Positions 42,101-48,016 of a stretch of DNA of 64,000 bases are shown here, piece after piece; position 1 is the stretch's first letter, and each line of letters begins with the position of its first letter. The stretch covers positions 1,910,501 through 1,974,500 of the forward strand of contig NZ_CP016353.1 of NCBI RefSeq assembly GCF_002240355.1. Direction: 5' to 3'. A program made the position numbers and the translations under genes. Below the pieces are notes generated by a model. It had not been told where the DNA came from, made no database searches, and saw nothing but the letters and a program-made list of their open reading frames with translations. The DNA is from Prauserella marina (GTDB taxonomy: Bacteria > Actinomycetota > Actinomycetes > Mycobacteriales > Pseudonocardiaceae).

Positions 42101-42970
42101 GTGTTCGAGAAAGCCACGACCCGTTCCTCCACAGAGGACACATCAGACGACACCGCGGACGGCGGTGCTGGTTCTGTTCGCTCACAGGAAAAAGCCTCCG
42201 CTCCCTCACGTGCTCGCCTCGCGCAACTTGCCGATCAGGTCGAGCGGGACAACGCGCGAAACGACGAAGCGCCACCGGCCGACCGCGCCGGCCGGATGAT
42301 CGAACGCTGGCTTCCCGAGGGAGCGTTGTCCGGGCCCGGCCGCCGCCGCGGGGTGTTCCTCGCGACCGGTCTCGTCGTGGCCGCGGTGATCGTCACCGCG
42401 GTCGTCATGCTGACCGGTTCGGGCCCGGCATCCGAACGTCCGCCCCCGCTGCCGGTTGCTCAGCAGCAGGCGGCCGCCGTCACGGCGACAACGGGACCGT
42501 CCACGACGGACACCAGCGACGAGCCGATGGTGGTCAGCGTCGTGGGAAAGGTCGCCGAACCCGGCTTGATCACGGTGCCTGCCGGTGCGAGGGTCGCCGA
42601 CGCCATCCGGGCTGTCGGGGGAGCCGACAAGGACGCGGACCTGCTGTCGGTCAACCTCGCGCGTCGGCTGAGCGACGGCGAACAGGTGTACGTCGGAGTC
42701 CCCGTACCGCCCGAGGTGATGGCGGCGGAATCTGGCCCCGCGCCGCCCGGGACCGGCGCCGGCCAGCAGGACACCGCGAAGATCGATCTGAACACGGCGG
42801 GGCAGGAACAACTGGAGAGCCTCAACGGGGTGGGAGAGGTGACCGCGCAACGGATACTCGACTGGCGGGCGCGCAACGGCCGCTTCACCGCCGTGGAGCA
42901 ACTGCGAGAAGTCGACGGCATCGGCGAGAAACGGTTCGCGGAGCTTCGTGAGCAGGTGACTCTGGGATGA
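42101..42970 (+). CDS. comEA: ComEA-like helix-hairpin-helix DNA-binding protein
   Basis: 289 residues. A charged cytoplasmic N-terminus of about 85 residues leads to one membrane segment (GVFLATGLVVAAVIVTAVVMLTG), then a Pro/Thr linker, a SLBB domain (VVSVVGKVAEPGLITVPAGARVADAIRAVGG) and a C-terminal (HhH)2 unit (KIDLNTAGQEQLESLNGVGEVTAQRILDWR to EVDGIGEKRFAELREQV). It would hold incoming DNA outside the membrane and pass it to ComEC. The start GTG is supported only by the leaderless promoter spacing. The ATG of comEC overlaps its stop. Confidence 0.9.
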   Translation: MFEKATTRSSTEDTSDDTADGGAGSVRSQEKASAPSRARLAQLADQVERDNARNDEAPPADRAGRMIERWLPEGALSGPGRRRGVFLATGLVVAAVIVTAVVMLTGSGPASERPPPLPVAQQQAAAVTATTGPSTTDTSDEPMVVSVVGKVAEPGLITVPAGARVADAIRAVGGADKDADLLSVNLARRLSDGEQVYVGVPVPPEVMAAESGPAPPGTGAGQQDTAKIDLNTAGQEQLESLNGVGEVTAQRILDWRARNGRFTAVEQLREVDGIGEKRFAELREQVTLG

Positions 42971-45372
42971 CCCGGCTGACCGGAACGGAGCCGTGCGGCG
43001 AGCTGCGCCGTGCCAGCGGACACGATTTCCGTCTGGTTCCCGCGGCGATTCTCGTGTGGACGGCCACGCTGCTCGGCTTGTTGTGGCACTGGGTGGCGAC
43101 AGTCGTCTGCGGTGTACTCGGCCTCGTCGCCGCTTGTGCGTTGATCCGGCGACGAAGACGAAGGCCGTCCACACGCGACCCGGACTGGCGGTTGCCTGTT
43201 GCCGGAACTCTCATCGTGTGCGGGGTACTCGTGGCCTCGGCACTGGCGTTCCGGATCGCGCAGGCTCAGCAGCATCCGTTGCGGGAACACGCGCAACGCG
43301 GCGGTGAGGCGCTCGTCAGCGGGACCGTGGCCGAGCGGCCTCGCCTGGTACGCGCGGCCGGATACGCGGGAAGGCCCGGGGGCGCCCAGTCGGTCGTCGT
43401 CCCGGTGGATCTGACAGAGGCCGTCGTCGGCGGTATTCCAGTGCGATCGGCGGGCAGGATCCTGTTGATCGCGCCTTTCGAGGAGTGGTCACGACTGCTG
43501 CCGGGGCAAGACGTCACCGCGAGCGGGGGTCTCGCGCCCTCGCGCGGTGGTGAACTGACGGTCGCCGTGACCTACGTGCGTGGTCCCCCGGAGTCGAAGG
43601 GGCCCGCGCCGGGGTGGCAGCGGGTGGCCGAGTCGCTGAGGGCGGAGCTGCGGACCGTCTCCTCGGTGCTGCCGGCGGAACCGGCGGGCTTGCTGCCCGG
43701 GCTGATCGTCGGCGACACCAGTGGCTTGCCGGAGCGCGTCGAGGAGGAGTTTCTGGACGCGGGCATGTCCCATCTCGTCGCGGTGTCCGGTTCGAACCTC
43801 GCCATCGTGTGCGGTGCCGTCCTGCTTACCGCGCGTGCGTTGCGCTGCGGGCCCCGGACGGCCGCGGCCATCGCGGGCGTCGCGTTGATCGGTTTCGTCG
43901 TCCTCGTCGGCTACGAACCGAGCGTGCTGCGGGCCGGCGTCATGGGTGCGGTGGGCTTGCTGGCACTCATGCTCGGCAGGCGAGGATCGGCGTTACCTGC
44001 CCTGGGGGCGGCCGTGTGCGTGCTGGTGCTCTACGACCCGGCCATGGCGACGACCATGGGTTTCGCACTGTCGGTCGCGGCGACGGCCGGCCTCGTGTTG
44101 CTGGCACCGCCGTGGTCGGACGCGATGCACCGGCGCAAGGTGCCCATCGGCGTCGCGCAAGCGCTCGCGGTACCGGTGGCGGCGTTTCTGGCGACGGCGC
44201 CGCTCATCGCGGGCATGGCCGGAGAGGTCAGCCTGGTGTCGGCGGTGGCGAACCTGCTGGCGGCACCCGTGGTCGCGCCGGTCACCGTGCTGGGGGTGCT
44301 CGCCGTCGTGCTGGCTCCGCTCTGGCATGGCGGCGCCGAGCTGCTGGTACAGGTCGCCGGTCCCGGCGTTGGCTGGCTCATCCTCGTGGCGAGGGAGGCG
44401 GCGTCAGTCCCCGGTGCGGTGATGCCGTGGCCCGCCGGCTGGTGGGGAGGTCTGTTCGCGCTTGGAATCGCCGCGCTTCTCGTGCTGGCGATCCGTTTCA
44501 GGGCCGCTCGGATGGGGCTCGCGCTGACGCTCACCGGCGTGCTGATCGTGTTCGTGCCGGTTCAGGTGGTCACGCCAGGCTGGCCGCCGCCGGGATGGAC
44601 GGCCGTCGCATGCGACGTCGGTCAGGGCGACGGTGTCGTGCTGGCGACCAGCCAGCCGGGGCGCGCGGTCGTGGTCGACACCGGGCCTGATCCCGCTCCG
44701 CTTGGCGATTGCCTCGACCGGCTCGACATCGAACGCGTACCGATGGTGGTGTTGAGCCATCTTCACGCCGACCATGTCGGCGGGCTGTCCTCGGTTTTCG
44801 ACGCGCGGTCGGTGGGTGCGGTCGCGGTCGGACCTGGCCGGACACCGTCATGGGCCTGGCGTCGGGTGGCCGCCGAAGCGGCCAGGCACGGCGTCCCGCT
44901 GCTGGAACTCAAAGCCGGTGACCGGCTCACCTGGCCAGGCTTGCGACTGGACGTCCTCGGACCTCGATATTCACCCGCGAGCAGCGAGGACGACGACGGC
45001 TCGACCATCAACAATGCCTCGCTGGTGGTCAAAGCCCACACCGGGGCCGGCAGAGTTCTGCTCACTGGTGACGTGGAACTGCTGGCACAGGGCGACCTGC
45101 TGGACGCGGGCACCGATCTGCGTGCCGAGGTGCTGAAGGTGCCGCACCACGGGAGCCGGTACAGCCTGCCGCCGTTCCTCGGAGCGGTGCGAGCACGGAT
45201 CGCACTGATCAGCGTGGGAGCCGACAACAACTACGGGCATCCGAGCCCGGTCACGATGAGAACACTGACATCCGGAGGTGCACTGGTGACACGAACCGAC
45301 ACGGCGGGGGATGTCGCGGTGGTCAAGGACGGCCACGACATCGCGATTGTCCGAAGAGGACGGTCGCCATGA
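42967..45372 (+). CDS. comEC: ComEC/Rec2 DNA-uptake channel protein
   Basis: 801 residues. It has an N-terminal DUF4131 region with two or three membrane helices, then the competence transmembrane domain (GLLPGLIVGDTSGLPERVEEEFLDAGMSHLVAVSGSNLAIV and further helices). The C-terminal metallo-beta-lactamase domain has LSHLHADHVGG near residue 597, LLTGDVE and KVPHHGSRYS. This is the full ComEC architecture for taking single-stranded DNA across the membrane, with a nuclease-like domain. The gene overlaps comEA (ATGA). Natural competence has rarely been shown in actinomycetes, so activity is uncertain, but nothing looks broken. Confidence 0.93.
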   Translation: MTRLTGTEPCGELRRASGHDFRLVPAAILVWTATLLGLLWHWVATVVCGVLGLVAACALIRRRRRRPSTRDPDWRLPVAGTLIVCGVLVASALAFRIAQAQQHPLREHAQRGGEALVSGTVAERPRLVRAAGYAGRPGGAQSVVVPVDLTEAVVGGIPVRSAGRILLIAPFEEWSRLLPGQDVTASGGLAPSRGGELTVAVTYVRGPPESKGPAPGWQRVAESLRAELRTVSSVLPAEPAGLLPGLIVGDTSGLPERVEEEFLDAGMSHLVAVSGSNLAIVCGAVLLTARALRCGPRTAAAIAGVALIGFVVLVGYEPSVLRAGVMGAVGLLALMLGRRGSALPALGAAVCVLVLYDPAMATTMGFALSVAATAGLVLLAPPWSDAMHRRKVPIGVAQALAVPVAAFLATAPLIAGMAGEVSLVSAVANLLAAPVVAPVTVLGVLAVVLAPLWHGGAELLVQVAGPGVGWLILVAREAASVPGAVMPWPAGWWGGLFALGIAALLVLAIRFRAARMGLALTLTGVLIVFVPVQVVTPGWPPPGWTAVACDVGQGDGVVLATSQPGRAVVVDTGPDPAPLGDCLDRLDIERVPMVVLSHLHADHVGGLSSVFDARSVGAVAVGPGRTPSWAWRRVAAEAARHGVPLLELKAGDRLTWPGLRLDVLGPRYSPASSEDDDGSTINNASLVVKAHTGAGRVLLTGDVELLAQGDLLDAGTDLRAEVLKVPHHGSRYSLPPFLGAVRARIALISVGADNNYGHPSPVTMRTLTSGGALVTRTDTAGDVAVVKDGHDIAIVRRGRSP

Positions 45373-45414
45373 GGTGATCGTGGAGTTGCCCGTTCCGGTG
45401 ATGACGTGAGCTCA

Positions 45415-45446
45415 CCACGGCGCGACGTGGTGACGTCGCGCCGTGG
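45415..45446. terminator. Bidirectional hairpin between comEC and the thrC-like gene
   Basis: CCACGGCGCGAC (45415-45426) and GTCGCGCCGTGG (45435-45446) form a perfect 12-base stem with an 8-base loop. It lies in the 98-bp gap between convergent comEC and the thrC-like gene. There is no U tract. Confidence 0.65.
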
Positions 45447-45470
45447 GCCGGGTCGGCGGGAGTCGCGGGC

Positions 45471-46733
45471 TCAGCGGCCCAGTGCCTCGCGGACCGCGTC
45501 GGCGGCGGGGGGAACGGTGGCCTTGGGGCCGACCTTGGATTCGATGGCGTCGAGCGTCTTCAGGCCGTCGCCGGTGATGAGCAGCACGGTCTCGGCGTCC
45601 GGGTCGAGCTTGCCAGTTTCGATGAGCTTCTTGGCGGTGGCCACGGTGACGCCGCCCGCCGTCTCGGTGAAAATGCCTTCGGTGCGGGCGAGTAGCCGGA
45701 TGCCCTCGACGACCTCCTCGTCGGTGACGTCCTCGATGGAGCCACCGGTGCGGTTGACCGTGTCCAGCACGTACGGGCCGTCGGCCGGGTTGCCGATCGC
45801 GAGCGAGCGGGCGATGGTGTCCGGCTTCACCGGTTGCACCACGTCGTGGCCCGCCCTGAACGCCGCTGACACCGGCGAACAGCCAGTGGCCTGTGCGCCG
45901 AACACCTTGTACGGCGACCCGTCGACGAGGTCGAGCTGGCTGAGTTCCCGGAAACCCTTGTCCACCTTGGTGAGCTGGGAGCCGGACGCGATGGGAACCA
46001 CGATCTGTTCCGGCAGCCGCCAGCCGAGCTGTTCGGCCACCTCGTAGGCGAGTGTCTTGGAGCCCTCGGAGTAGTACGGCCGCACGTTGACGTTGACGAA
46101 CGCCCAGCTTTCGTTCTCGGCGGCGAGCTGGGTGGCGAGGCGGTTCACGTCGTCGTAGTTGCCGTCGACGGCGAGCAGCGCGCCGTCGTAAACGGCGGTC
46201 GTGAGGATCTTGGCCCGTTCGAGGCTGGAGGGTACGAGTACGACGGACTGCCAGCCCGCCCGTGCCGCCGCGGCGGCGACGGCGTTGGCCAGGTTGCCGG
46301 TCGATGGGCAGGCCAGGGTGTCGAAGCCGAATTCACGGGCCGCGGCGAGCGCGACCGCCACCACGCGGTCCTTGAAGGAGTGAGTGGGATTGCCGGTGTC
46401 GTCCTTGACCCAGACGCGCTTGACCCCGAGGGCCTTCGCCAGCCGGTCGGCACGCACCAGCCTGGTACAGCCCGGCTCGGTGTTGGGGATCTCCTCGACG
46501 TTCGAGGGCACCGGCAGCAGCTTCTTGTAACGCCAGATGTTGCGCGGACCGGACTCGATGTCCTCGCGGCGAACCCTGCCGAAGTCGTAGGCGACCTCAA
46601 GGGGGGAGAAGTCCTCAGCCGAAACGAACTCGGGTGCGAGTGGCTGGCGGTGACCCTCTTCTTTGGAAACCAGCTCAACTGCGGGGCCGAGGTCGACATT
46701 GTGCTTGGTGGTCGTACCGAGAGCTGCGGTCAT
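45471..46733 (-). CDS. Threonine-synthase-like PLP enzyme (possible O-phosphohomoserine-dependent homocysteine synthase)
   Basis: 420 residues of fold-type II PLP enzyme. The cofactor Lys lies in DDTGNPTHSFKDR (about residue 133), the phosphate loop region is ACPSTGNLANAVAAAAARAG, and IASGSQLTKVDKGFREL follows. By family it converts O-phosphohomoserine to threonine. However, a SAM riboswitch lies directly upstream. Such switches normally shut off methionine or SAM synthesis genes, not threonine synthesis. Some actinomycete ThrC homologues are reported, to my recollection, to make homocysteine from O-phosphohomoserine, which would explain the switch. The gene is inserted, reversed, between comEC and holA, which are otherwise neighbours. 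No hom or thrB gene is nearby. Family certain; reaction open. Confidence 0.85.
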   Translation of the reverse strand: MTAALGTTTKHNVDLGPAVELVSKEEGHRQPLAPEFVSAEDFSPLEVAYDFGRVRREDIESGPRNIWRYKKLLPVPSNVEEIPNTEPGCTRLVRADRLAKALGVKRVWVKDDTGNPTHSFKDRVVAVALAAAREFGFDTLACPSTGNLANAVAAAAARAGWQSVVLVPSSLERAKILTTAVYDGALLAVDGNYDDVNRLATQLAAENESWAFVNVNVRPYYSEGSKTLAYEVAEQLGWRLPEQIVVPIASGSQLTKVDKGFRELSQLDLVDGSPYKVFGAQATGCSPVSAAFRAGHDVVQPVKPDTIARSLAIGNPADGPYVLDTVNRTGGSIEDVTDEEVVEGIRLLARTEGIFTETAGGVTVATAKKLIETGKLDPDAETVLLITGDGLKTLDAIESKVGPKATVPPAADAVREALGR

Positions 46734-46747
46734 CGCGAGGTCCTTTC

Positions 46748-46875
46748 CTCATCTGCCCCGCTGTGCGGGCCGGAATTGGCACCGTGATCGACAGCTACCT
46801 CGCGGAATCGAGATGACAGGCTGTCGCCGGTTGCCGGGGCTTCATCGGGCCGTTCCCTCTGCCCCTCTGGATGAG
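46748..46875 (-). promoter_or_regulatory. SAM-I-type riboswitch upstream of the thrC-like gene
   Basis: Read on the minus strand, the leader starts CUCAUCCAGAGGGGC, continues AGAGGGAACGGCCCGAUGAA and GCCCCGGCAACC, and later has GGUGCCAAUUCC, the conserved SAM-I core blocks. P1 pairs CUCAUC (46875-46870) with GAUGAG (46753-46748). P2 uses GGGGC/GCCCC, P3 CGACAGC/GCUGUCG, and P4 GCCCGC-ACA-GCGGGGC. The P4 hairpin before the closing strand fits SAM-I better than SAM-IV. P1 closes 14 bases before the ATG, and GAUGAGG runs into AAAGGA, the likely ribosome site, so control by hiding the ribosome site is plausible. No terminator stem with a U tract is seen between P1 and the gene. Confidence 0.88.
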
Positions 46876-47035
46876 CGGTATTCGATTGTGGACCGGCCGG
46901 ACCGACATCACCGGAATGGTGGTCGCGACCGTCGTGGGCCGTATCGCCATTCACACTACGACATCGAGTTCGATTCCTGCCACGGCCATGCGGGCTATGT
47001 CACCGTTGTCGGTGGCTCGTGGCAGGATCGGGACC

Positions 47036-48016
47036 GTGACCGCGCCAGCCACCACGCCCCCGCCGCTGCACCTGGTGCTGGGCGACGAGGAGCTGCTTGT
47101 CGAACGCGCCGTGTACGCGGCGCTGGACGCCGCTCGGCTCGCCGACGCGACTGCCGATCTGACCAGGGTTCGGGTGTCCGATCTCACAGCGCCCGTGCTG
47201 GCCGAGCTGGTCAGTCCCTCGCTGTTCAGCGAGGGCAGGGTGATCGTCCTGGAATCGGCACACGACATCGGTCAGGACATCGCCGATGCCGTGCTCGCTT
47301 ACATCGCCCAGCCCGCCGACGGGATCGTGCTGGTGGTGGTGCACAGCGGTGGCGGGCGAAGCAAGGCGGCCAAGTCGCTGCCTTCGGCCTTGAAGAAGGC
47401 CGGCGCCGTGGTCACCGAATGCGCCAAGATCAGCAAGCCCGCCGAGCGCGAAGCGTTTGTGCGCAACGAGGTTCGCAAGGCCGGCGGCCGAATCGACGCC
47501 GCAGGCGTCGTCGCGTTGATCGACGCCGTCGGTTCGGATTTGCGTGAACTGGCCTCTGCCTCGGCGCAGCTCGTCGCCGATTCAGGGGGAAACGTCGACG
47601 AGGCCGCTGTGCGGACCTACCACACGGGGCGGGCGGACGTCACCGGGTTCATGGTCGCCGAGAAGGCCGTCGCGGGCGACAGGGCCGCCGCGCTGGAATC
47701 AGTGCGCTGGGCACAGCAGATCGGTGTTCCGCATGTGCTCGTGGCCGATGCGCTGGCCGACGCGGTACGCACGATCGCCAGGGTGTCGGCCGCCGGGCGG
47801 GGCAATCCCAATCAGATGGCGGGCGAGCTGGGGATGCCGCCGTGGAAGATCCGTAAGGCACAGGGCCAGTCCCGAGGGTGGAGCGCAGGGGGGCTCGCCG
47901 AGGCCATGCGGGTGGCGGCGCGGGTGAACGCGGAGGTCAAAGGTGCCGCCGCGAGTCCGGACTATGCCATCGAGCGTGCTGTCCTCGACATCGCCGCCGC
48001 GCGGGAGCGTCGCTAG
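47036..48016 (+). CDS. holA: DNA polymerase III subunit delta
   Basis: 326 residues from GTG 47036. The N-terminus PPLHLVLGDEELLVERAVYAAL and the body (FSEGRVIVLESAHDI, GSDLRELASASAQLV, GRADVTGFMVAEKAV) match actinobacterial HolA, the clamp-loader subunit that opens the beta clamp. The position before rpsT is conserved (Rv2413c). A weak -10-like CAGGAT lies 7 bases before the GTG. The gene is divergent from the riboswitch-controlled thrC-like gene, so the roughly 160 bases between the start codon and the riboswitch's 5' end must hold both promoters. Confidence 0.93.
   Translation: MTAPATTPPPLHLVLGDEELLVERAVYAALDAARLADATADLTRVRVSDLTAPVLAELVSPSLFSEGRVIVLESAHDIGQDIADAVLAYIAQPADGIVLVVVHSGGGRSKAAKSLPSALKKAGAVVTECAKISKPAEREAFVRNEVRKAGGRIDAAGVVALIDAVGSDLRELASASAQLVADSGGNVDEAAVRTYHTGRADVTGFMVAEKAVAGDRAAALESVRWAQQIGVPHVLVADALADAVRTIARVSAAGRGNPNQMAGELGMPPWKIRKAQGQSRGWSAGGLAEAMRVAARVNAEVKGAAASPDYAIERAVLDIAAARERR

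Follow-up and report, generated by a model that had tools for sequence, protein, structure and literature searches.

A SAM-I riboswitch ahead of a probable MetM-type homocysteine synthase gene in Prauserella marina and its family

The leader of a gene that family models name thrC, in a 64,000-nucleotide stretch of the Prauserella marina genome (the window), is a genuine SAM-I riboswitch aptamer as judged from its sequence and pairing. We interpret it as governing the translation of a MetM-type homocysteine synthase; it would bind SAM and repress the enzyme when SAM is plentiful, a reading to which we assign a probability of roughly 0.85. Riboswitches of the SAM-I kind are already known, and metM has recently been described. 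What is new is the MetM of the window's clade, which is poor in cysteines and lacks MetO, together with the presence of the gene in all 200 sampled genomes of the family and the distribution of metO-like genes, which accompany metM in 32 of 37 actinomycete loci outside the Pseudonocardiales and in 0 of 43 loci within it.

The RF00162 (SAM-I) covariance model, which the earlier note on this DNA had proposed as a check on its claim of a SAM-I-type riboswitch upstream of a threonine-synthase-like gene, gave a significant match at 46877..46746 of the minus strand. The match is complete (model positions 1-108) and scores 78.8 bits (E 7.3e-17) against a gathering cut-off of 44.4 bits; in a cmscan of the whole 64 kb it was the sole Rfam match at gathering level. 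The second model proposed, RF00634 (SAM-IV), had no gathering-level match in the window, in a scan that retained the best alone of overlapping matches from one clan. The limits given in that note, 46748-46875, are the exact outer bases of the 6-bp P1 (CUCAUC/GAUGAG), and P1 does close 14 bases ahead of the ATG at 46733. The core blocks and the P1-P4 pairings that had been drawn by eye are those of SAM-I (S-box) RNAs, as the full-length match to RF00162 and the covariation described below both show. The window's riboswitch differs from the RF00162 model in a long extension of P3. The P3 hairpin (46778-46835) is very variable in length among relatives, and the core of the riboswitch is near-constant.

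Covariation was assessed in an alignment of 47 leaders (46 distinct), the window's own plus 46 taken from among the 50 tested relative genomes. Pairing holds in 99.9% of cells across the 25 core pairs, and both-sided changes occur in 7 of these pairs. The covariation score of the aptamer was reached by none of 500 shuffles, and sliding the partner columns by 1-3 positions lowered pairing to 39-46%. This support comes from P2 and P4, P1 and P3 being near-invariant. The features of the leader and its surroundings are collected in Table 1.

Table 1. Positions in the window of the riboswitch, its putative expression platform and the adjacent genes.
Feature	Position	Strand	Basis
SAM-I riboswitch aptamer	46746..46877	-	RF00162, 78.8 bits, and covariation
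P1 5' strand CTCATC	46870..46875	-	RF00162 and leader alignment; near-invariant there
P1 3' strand GATGAG, adjoining the ribosome site	46748..46753	-	RF00162 and leader alignment; near-invariant there
P2 stem-loop	46836..46865	-	leader alignment; both-sided changes in 3/5 outer pairs
P3 with extended hairpin of variable length	46778..46835	-	RF00162 and leader alignment
P4 hairpin CCCGC/GCGGG	46757..46769	-	leader alignment; both-sided changes in 4/5 pairs
AAAGGA, probable Shine-Dalgarno, one base past P1 and 7 nt ahead of the ATG	46741..46746	-	sequence; putative assignment
CCTC before the start codon, pairable with GAGG 46750-46747 in competition with P1	46737..46740	-	leader alignment
Conserved block ACAATCGAATAC directly 5' of P1	46878..46889	-	ACAAY count across leaders
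TAGTGT, possible -10 element (TANNNT type)	46953..46958	-	picked by eye from relatives; weak
metM-type gene, 420 aa, named thrC by family models	45471..46733	-	TIGR00260 (279.9 bits), PF00291; MetM on comparative evidence
comEC-like gene, convergent downstream neighbour, no metO between	42967..45372	+	named by eye
holA-like gene, divergent upstream neighbour	47036..48016	+	named by eye

In many Bacillota, S-boxes control their genes by means of a terminator. In the window, on the other hand, the ribosome site abuts P1 and control is probably translational. Because the aptamer ends 12 bases ahead of the ATG, there is no room for a terminator, and a pattern scan of 45380-47080 found no terminator-like sites. 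This anatomy supports the proposal, made in the earlier note, that translational control is likelier than termination, and we regard the expression platform as probably translational; the available excerpt of PMC12452182 describes such a tendency for the riboswitches of Actinomycetota. In several other genera (loci L041, L042, L043, L046 and L051) the tail of the leader reads GAUGAGGAGAUACCUCGCGAUG, in which AGGAG, the probable ribosome site, shares bases with the 3' strand of P1. When the leaders were folded with P1 either forced or blocked, the ribosome site was less accessible with P1 in 35 of the 47, with means of 0.48 and 0.58, and in the window's leader the two values were just 0.60 and 0.63. 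In these predictions, then, P1 conceals the ribosome site weakly, and our view that SAM most likely represses expression therefore draws on the logic of the pathway.

One genome per species was scanned, and the best 80 loci were retained. They comprise 43 Pseudonocardiales (L021-L062 and L074, a set that takes in Actinopolyspora and one MAG, L034, placed by tree) and 37 others. For 50 of these 80 loci, all 43 Pseudonocardiales and 7 others, the whole genome was searched with RF00162. Every one of the 50 genomes holds a match above the cut-off, and in every one the top-scoring match is immediately 5' of the metM-type gene on the same strand, 10-63 nt ahead of the matched coding part. A plain pattern search recovered the SAM-I core motifs in 77 of the best 80 loci, the misses being L067, L070 and L091. 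The 7 other genomes have one SAM-I match each; among the 43 Pseudonocardiales there are two in 37 genomes, one in five and three in one. The second SAM-I in the window's genome (C1:5894024-5894135, which is L008 1501-1612 on the minus strand; 56.2 bits) is upstream of a gene that by eye encodes a MetN-like ABC ATPase. In the genome of L074 (G043, Pseudonocardia sp. CNS-139) two further SAM-I matches, of 47.6 and 45.4 bits, are found at C190:33254-33619; they lie on opposite strands about 175 bases apart and point away from each other.

A block directly 5' of P1 is conserved. Of 51 leaders, 47 have ACAAY no farther than 18 nt from P1, compared with 1 of 255 control windows farther upstream. TANNNT precedes the ACAAY block by 5-9 nt in 10 leaders, so the block may be a conserved mRNA start; a sigma-70-type scan found no promoter. 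The neighbouring genes set the Pseudonocardiales apart among the best 80 loci, as holA is near the gene in 43/43 of their loci and comEC in 41/43, against 0/37 of the other loci in both cases.

By score alone the gene product would be a threonine synthase, since it reaches 279.9 bits with the TIGR00260 equivalog model, whose curated cut-off is 167.1. It shares with ThrC proteins (TIGR00260; PDB 6cgq, 2zsj, 1uim and 2d1f) both the family and the PLP lysine motif SFKDR, but differs from them in having H for G in NPT(H)SFKDR (near-invariant) and A-S-G at residues 249-251 for G-N-A. The window's genome, which is assembled in two contigs of 6.99 Mb and is 99.96% complete, contains a separate hom-thrC-thrB cluster (locus L002; genes named by eye from their translations), and the window protein is 34% identical to the ThrC encoded there. 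The idea that this gene supplies the genome with its threonine synthase was therefore rejected. Among 81 MetM-type proteins 162 columns are invariant when one exception is allowed; the ThrC of this genome departs from 82 of these, with a gap at 11. The nearest relative among plasmid records, from Nonomuraea, is 65.6% identical. In view of this evidence we judge the name thrC given by TIGR00260 to be a misnaming, and the product is probably a MetM-type homocysteine synthase.

MetM is a novel homocysteine synthase of Streptomyces reported by Hasebe et al. in 2024; the S. albulus enzyme makes homocysteine from O-phosphohomoserine, and its gene has a SAM riboswitch upstream (PMC12172450, available part). 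The window gene resembles this system, by that partial description, in that it encodes a threonine-synthase-like PLP enzyme and is preceded by a SAM riboswitch (PMC12172450). Given the separate thrC and the resemblance to metM, SAM most likely shuts off methionine synthesis here, as it usually does. Of the earlier interpretation, then, the SAM-I identity and, on anatomical grounds, the translational control stand, and the view that a SAM switch sits oddly on a thrC gene is not supported.

The need for the gene was examined in 200 genomes of the window's family, at least 97% complete and representing 44 genera. A metM-type protein was found in 200/200 genomes and 44/44 genera (E 1e-100). MetX (TIGR01392) was matched at 1e-30 in 149 genomes, presence being judged by E-value; the curated cut-off of 500 bits was reached by 0/200 genomes and 0/14 controls. 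True-looking MetX matches are below 1e-90, and because four of the 149 are weaker (G062, G112, G116 and G175, 3e-65 to 6e-45), the 51 genomes with no match are a floor for the absence of MetX. Among these 51, in which the gene may be the main methionine route, are G053, G061, G072 and G099, each of them assembled in a single contig. Of the 50 tested genomes, MetX is missing from 7 of the 43 Pseudonocardiales and 5 of the 7 others. O-acetylhomoserine sulfhydrylase was above its cut-off in 0/17 MetX-lacking genomes (G062 counted among them) as against 5/5 MetX-bearing ones, with partial weak matches in 3 of the 17, and MetA was above its cut-off in 0/12 MetX-lacking genomes, G047 having a sub-threshold match. 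The searches covered MetX, MetY and MetA. As gene and switch are kept in genomes with no MetX and no MetA or MetY above these thresholds, another route to homocysteine would be needed there. MetX-MetY, another MetY and a MetB-like gene are also encoded in the window's own genome, where MetM may therefore be one of two routes and is not the sole possible one.

In Streptomyces, MetM reportedly receives its sulfur from MetO, a thiocarboxylated donor whose gene follows metM. Unlike in S. albulus, no metO-like gene follows the window gene or the gene in any of the 43 Pseudonocardiales loci. Within 1.5 kb downstream a metO-like gene was found in 32/37 of the other loci among the best 80; it was missed in L063, L091 and L097 and in two loci that end early, L083 and L092. 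Next to the metM homologue of the cyanobacterium Microcystis there is likewise a metO-like sulfur carrier gene, according to the available text of PMC12172450. The adjacent metO is a trait of the described system, and its absence here leaves the MetM-like reading standing.

MetO encoded elsewhere in Pseudonocardiales genomes was considered and is not supported. With carrier profile A1 the seven other genomes each gave two strong carriers, of which MetO, at 154-170 bits, is next to metM and CysO, at 117-125 bits, is at another site; three of the seven gave a third, weaker one. One strong carrier was detected in 42/43 Pseudonocardiales genomes (127-142 bits, and 144 in the window's genome); in the genome of L058 the match is in two pieces. 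This strong carrier lies in mec-cysO-cysM wherever its locus was read in the Pseudonocardiales, at 28 distinct loci from the window's genome and 27 more (all 7 that lack MetX included), and CysO is likewise accompanied by mec and cysM in 7/7 loci from the others. In the family survey, with a carrier profile that consists mostly of MetO rows and at 1e-28, exactly one carrier was present in 198/200 genomes, two in G164 and none in G085, an assembly of 730 contigs. A tree of 54 carriers, from which 4 wrongly cut rows of 58 were left out, separates MetO (21) from all CysO with branch support of 100/99 and divides the latter into Pseudonocardiales CysO (26) and other CysO (7). Those Pseudonocardiales carriers that are in the tree thus group with CysO, and at 11 diagnostic columns they are MetO-like in 4, CysO-like in 6 and neither in 1. 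Tree and operon context together indicate that MetO was lost or never gained in Pseudonocardiales. A second, weaker carrier (54-84 bits at 1e-6) was seen in 16/43 Pseudonocardiales genomes; these weaker carriers, none of which is in the tree, may yet be partners of MetM. In 4 of the 5 such loci that were read (L147, L148, L149 and L150) the divergent second carrier-like gene adjoins a gene for a repeat protein, which we take to be exo-sialidase-like.

The other departure from the S. albulus system is at the N-terminus of the protein. Among the best 80 loci a four-cysteine motif, CxxC...CxxC, was detected by script in 36 of the 37 other loci, and in the remaining one, L089, on reading the translation. 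We presume this part of MetM to be zinc-ribbon-like. The motif is kept in 19 of the 43 Pseudonocardiales loci and lost in 24, with no cysteine left in 22 and one in 2, and it is lost in the window's protein too. The cysteine-poor proteins form one branch of the MetM tree (support 100/99), so that a single loss suffices. Since the 19 Pseudonocardiales that keep the four cysteines also have no metO, loss of the motif did not accompany that of MetO. In the Amycolatopsis/Saccharopolyspora-type clade a well-conserved stretch such as VSKEEGHRQPLAPEFVSAEDF takes the place of the cysteines, at residues of about 16-55, a sign that the N-terminal module may be kept there without its metal.

From these observations we propose the following mechanism. 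MetM, as a threonine-synthase-related PLP enzyme, would combine O-phosphohomoserine with a sulfur donor to give the homocysteine from which methionine is made. With SAM plentiful, the aptamer would fold and P1 close on GAUGAG, burying or crowding the ribosome site that overlaps or follows P1 and so lowering the output of enzyme; a fall in SAM would open P1 and let translation proceed. In Pseudonocardiales MetM would work without a linked MetO and take its sulfur from one of two sources, free sulfide or the CysO encoded in mec-cysO-cysM.

In plants, SAM acts allosterically to divert O-phosphohomoserine to threonine. By analogy, the window gene could be a second true threonine synthase switched on by SAM, with surplus SAM sending O-phosphohomoserine to threonine. 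The TIGR00260 match above its equivalog cut-off would fit this, as would the pairing of GAGG with CCTC, which competes with P1 and, once P1 has opened, could cover some of the ribosome site. That hairpin pairs in 97.3% of cells (46 distinct leaders), but 180 of 500 shuffles score as high, leaving it no covariation beyond that of the shuffles. The Microcystis homologue, moreover, has threonine synthase as well as deaminase activity and in the cell is not fully a MetM (PMC12172450, as far as its available text goes). Against these points are the dedicated hom-thrC-thrB cluster, the departure of ThrC from half of the MetM-invariant columns listed above, and the persistence of gene and switch in genomes with no MetX and no MetA or MetY above threshold, and we consider a SAM-activated second threonine synthase improbable. 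Still less credible is a switch that has decayed or lost its function. The MetX-MetY pair makes MetM possibly redundant in the window's genome, yet the switch has intact, conserved core blocks and pairs, and a SAM-I aptamer precedes the gene in each of the 50 tested genomes.

Within the preferred reading of the gene as metM, the source of the sulfur allows two answers. MetM of this group may use free sulfide and need no sulfur carrier, to which we give even odds. This would agree with the missing metO-like gene in all 43 Pseudonocardiales loci among the best 80, with the loss of the four N-terminal cysteines in the window's clade, and with the use of Na2S to mimic MetM activity in the cyanobacterial study (available part of PMC12172450). 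On the other hand, a close sulfur carrier is kept in 199/200 family genomes, and in mec-cysO-cysM in 28/28 of the Pseudonocardiales loci read, so a protein donor is available. We advance, tentatively, a shared use of CysO. One carrier would feed both CysM, for cysteine, and MetM, for homocysteine; MetO would have been lost or never acquired, metM would sit in its own comEC-holA neighbourhood, and one clade would then have dropped the four N-terminal cysteines. CysM/CysO is a cysteine synthesis system of Mycobacterium tuberculosis, in which a PLP enzyme acts on a phosphorylated amino acid with a sulfur carrier protein (PMC12910592, available excerpt). The window's genome has the corresponding mec-cysO-cysM operon, and the chemistry of MetM would be alike. 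MetM differs in that it would take O-phosphohomoserine, which is one carbon longer, and its use of CysO is our proposal. Free sulfide is at least as likely as sharing of CysO. An account of MetM working without MetO in Pseudonocardiales was not found in the literature searched, which did not extend to the original MetM paper, and this is not proof that none exists.

With the gene read as metM, the apparent paradox of a SAM-controlled "threonine synthase" is removed, and what annotation models call thrC is marked out, throughout the 200 sampled genomes of the family, as probably a gene of methionine synthesis. The missing MetO raises a sharp biochemical question, whether MetM here uses CysO or free sulfide only. 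If CysO does serve both enzymes, the SAM riboswitch on metM would be a main control over how CysO-borne sulfur is shared between them.
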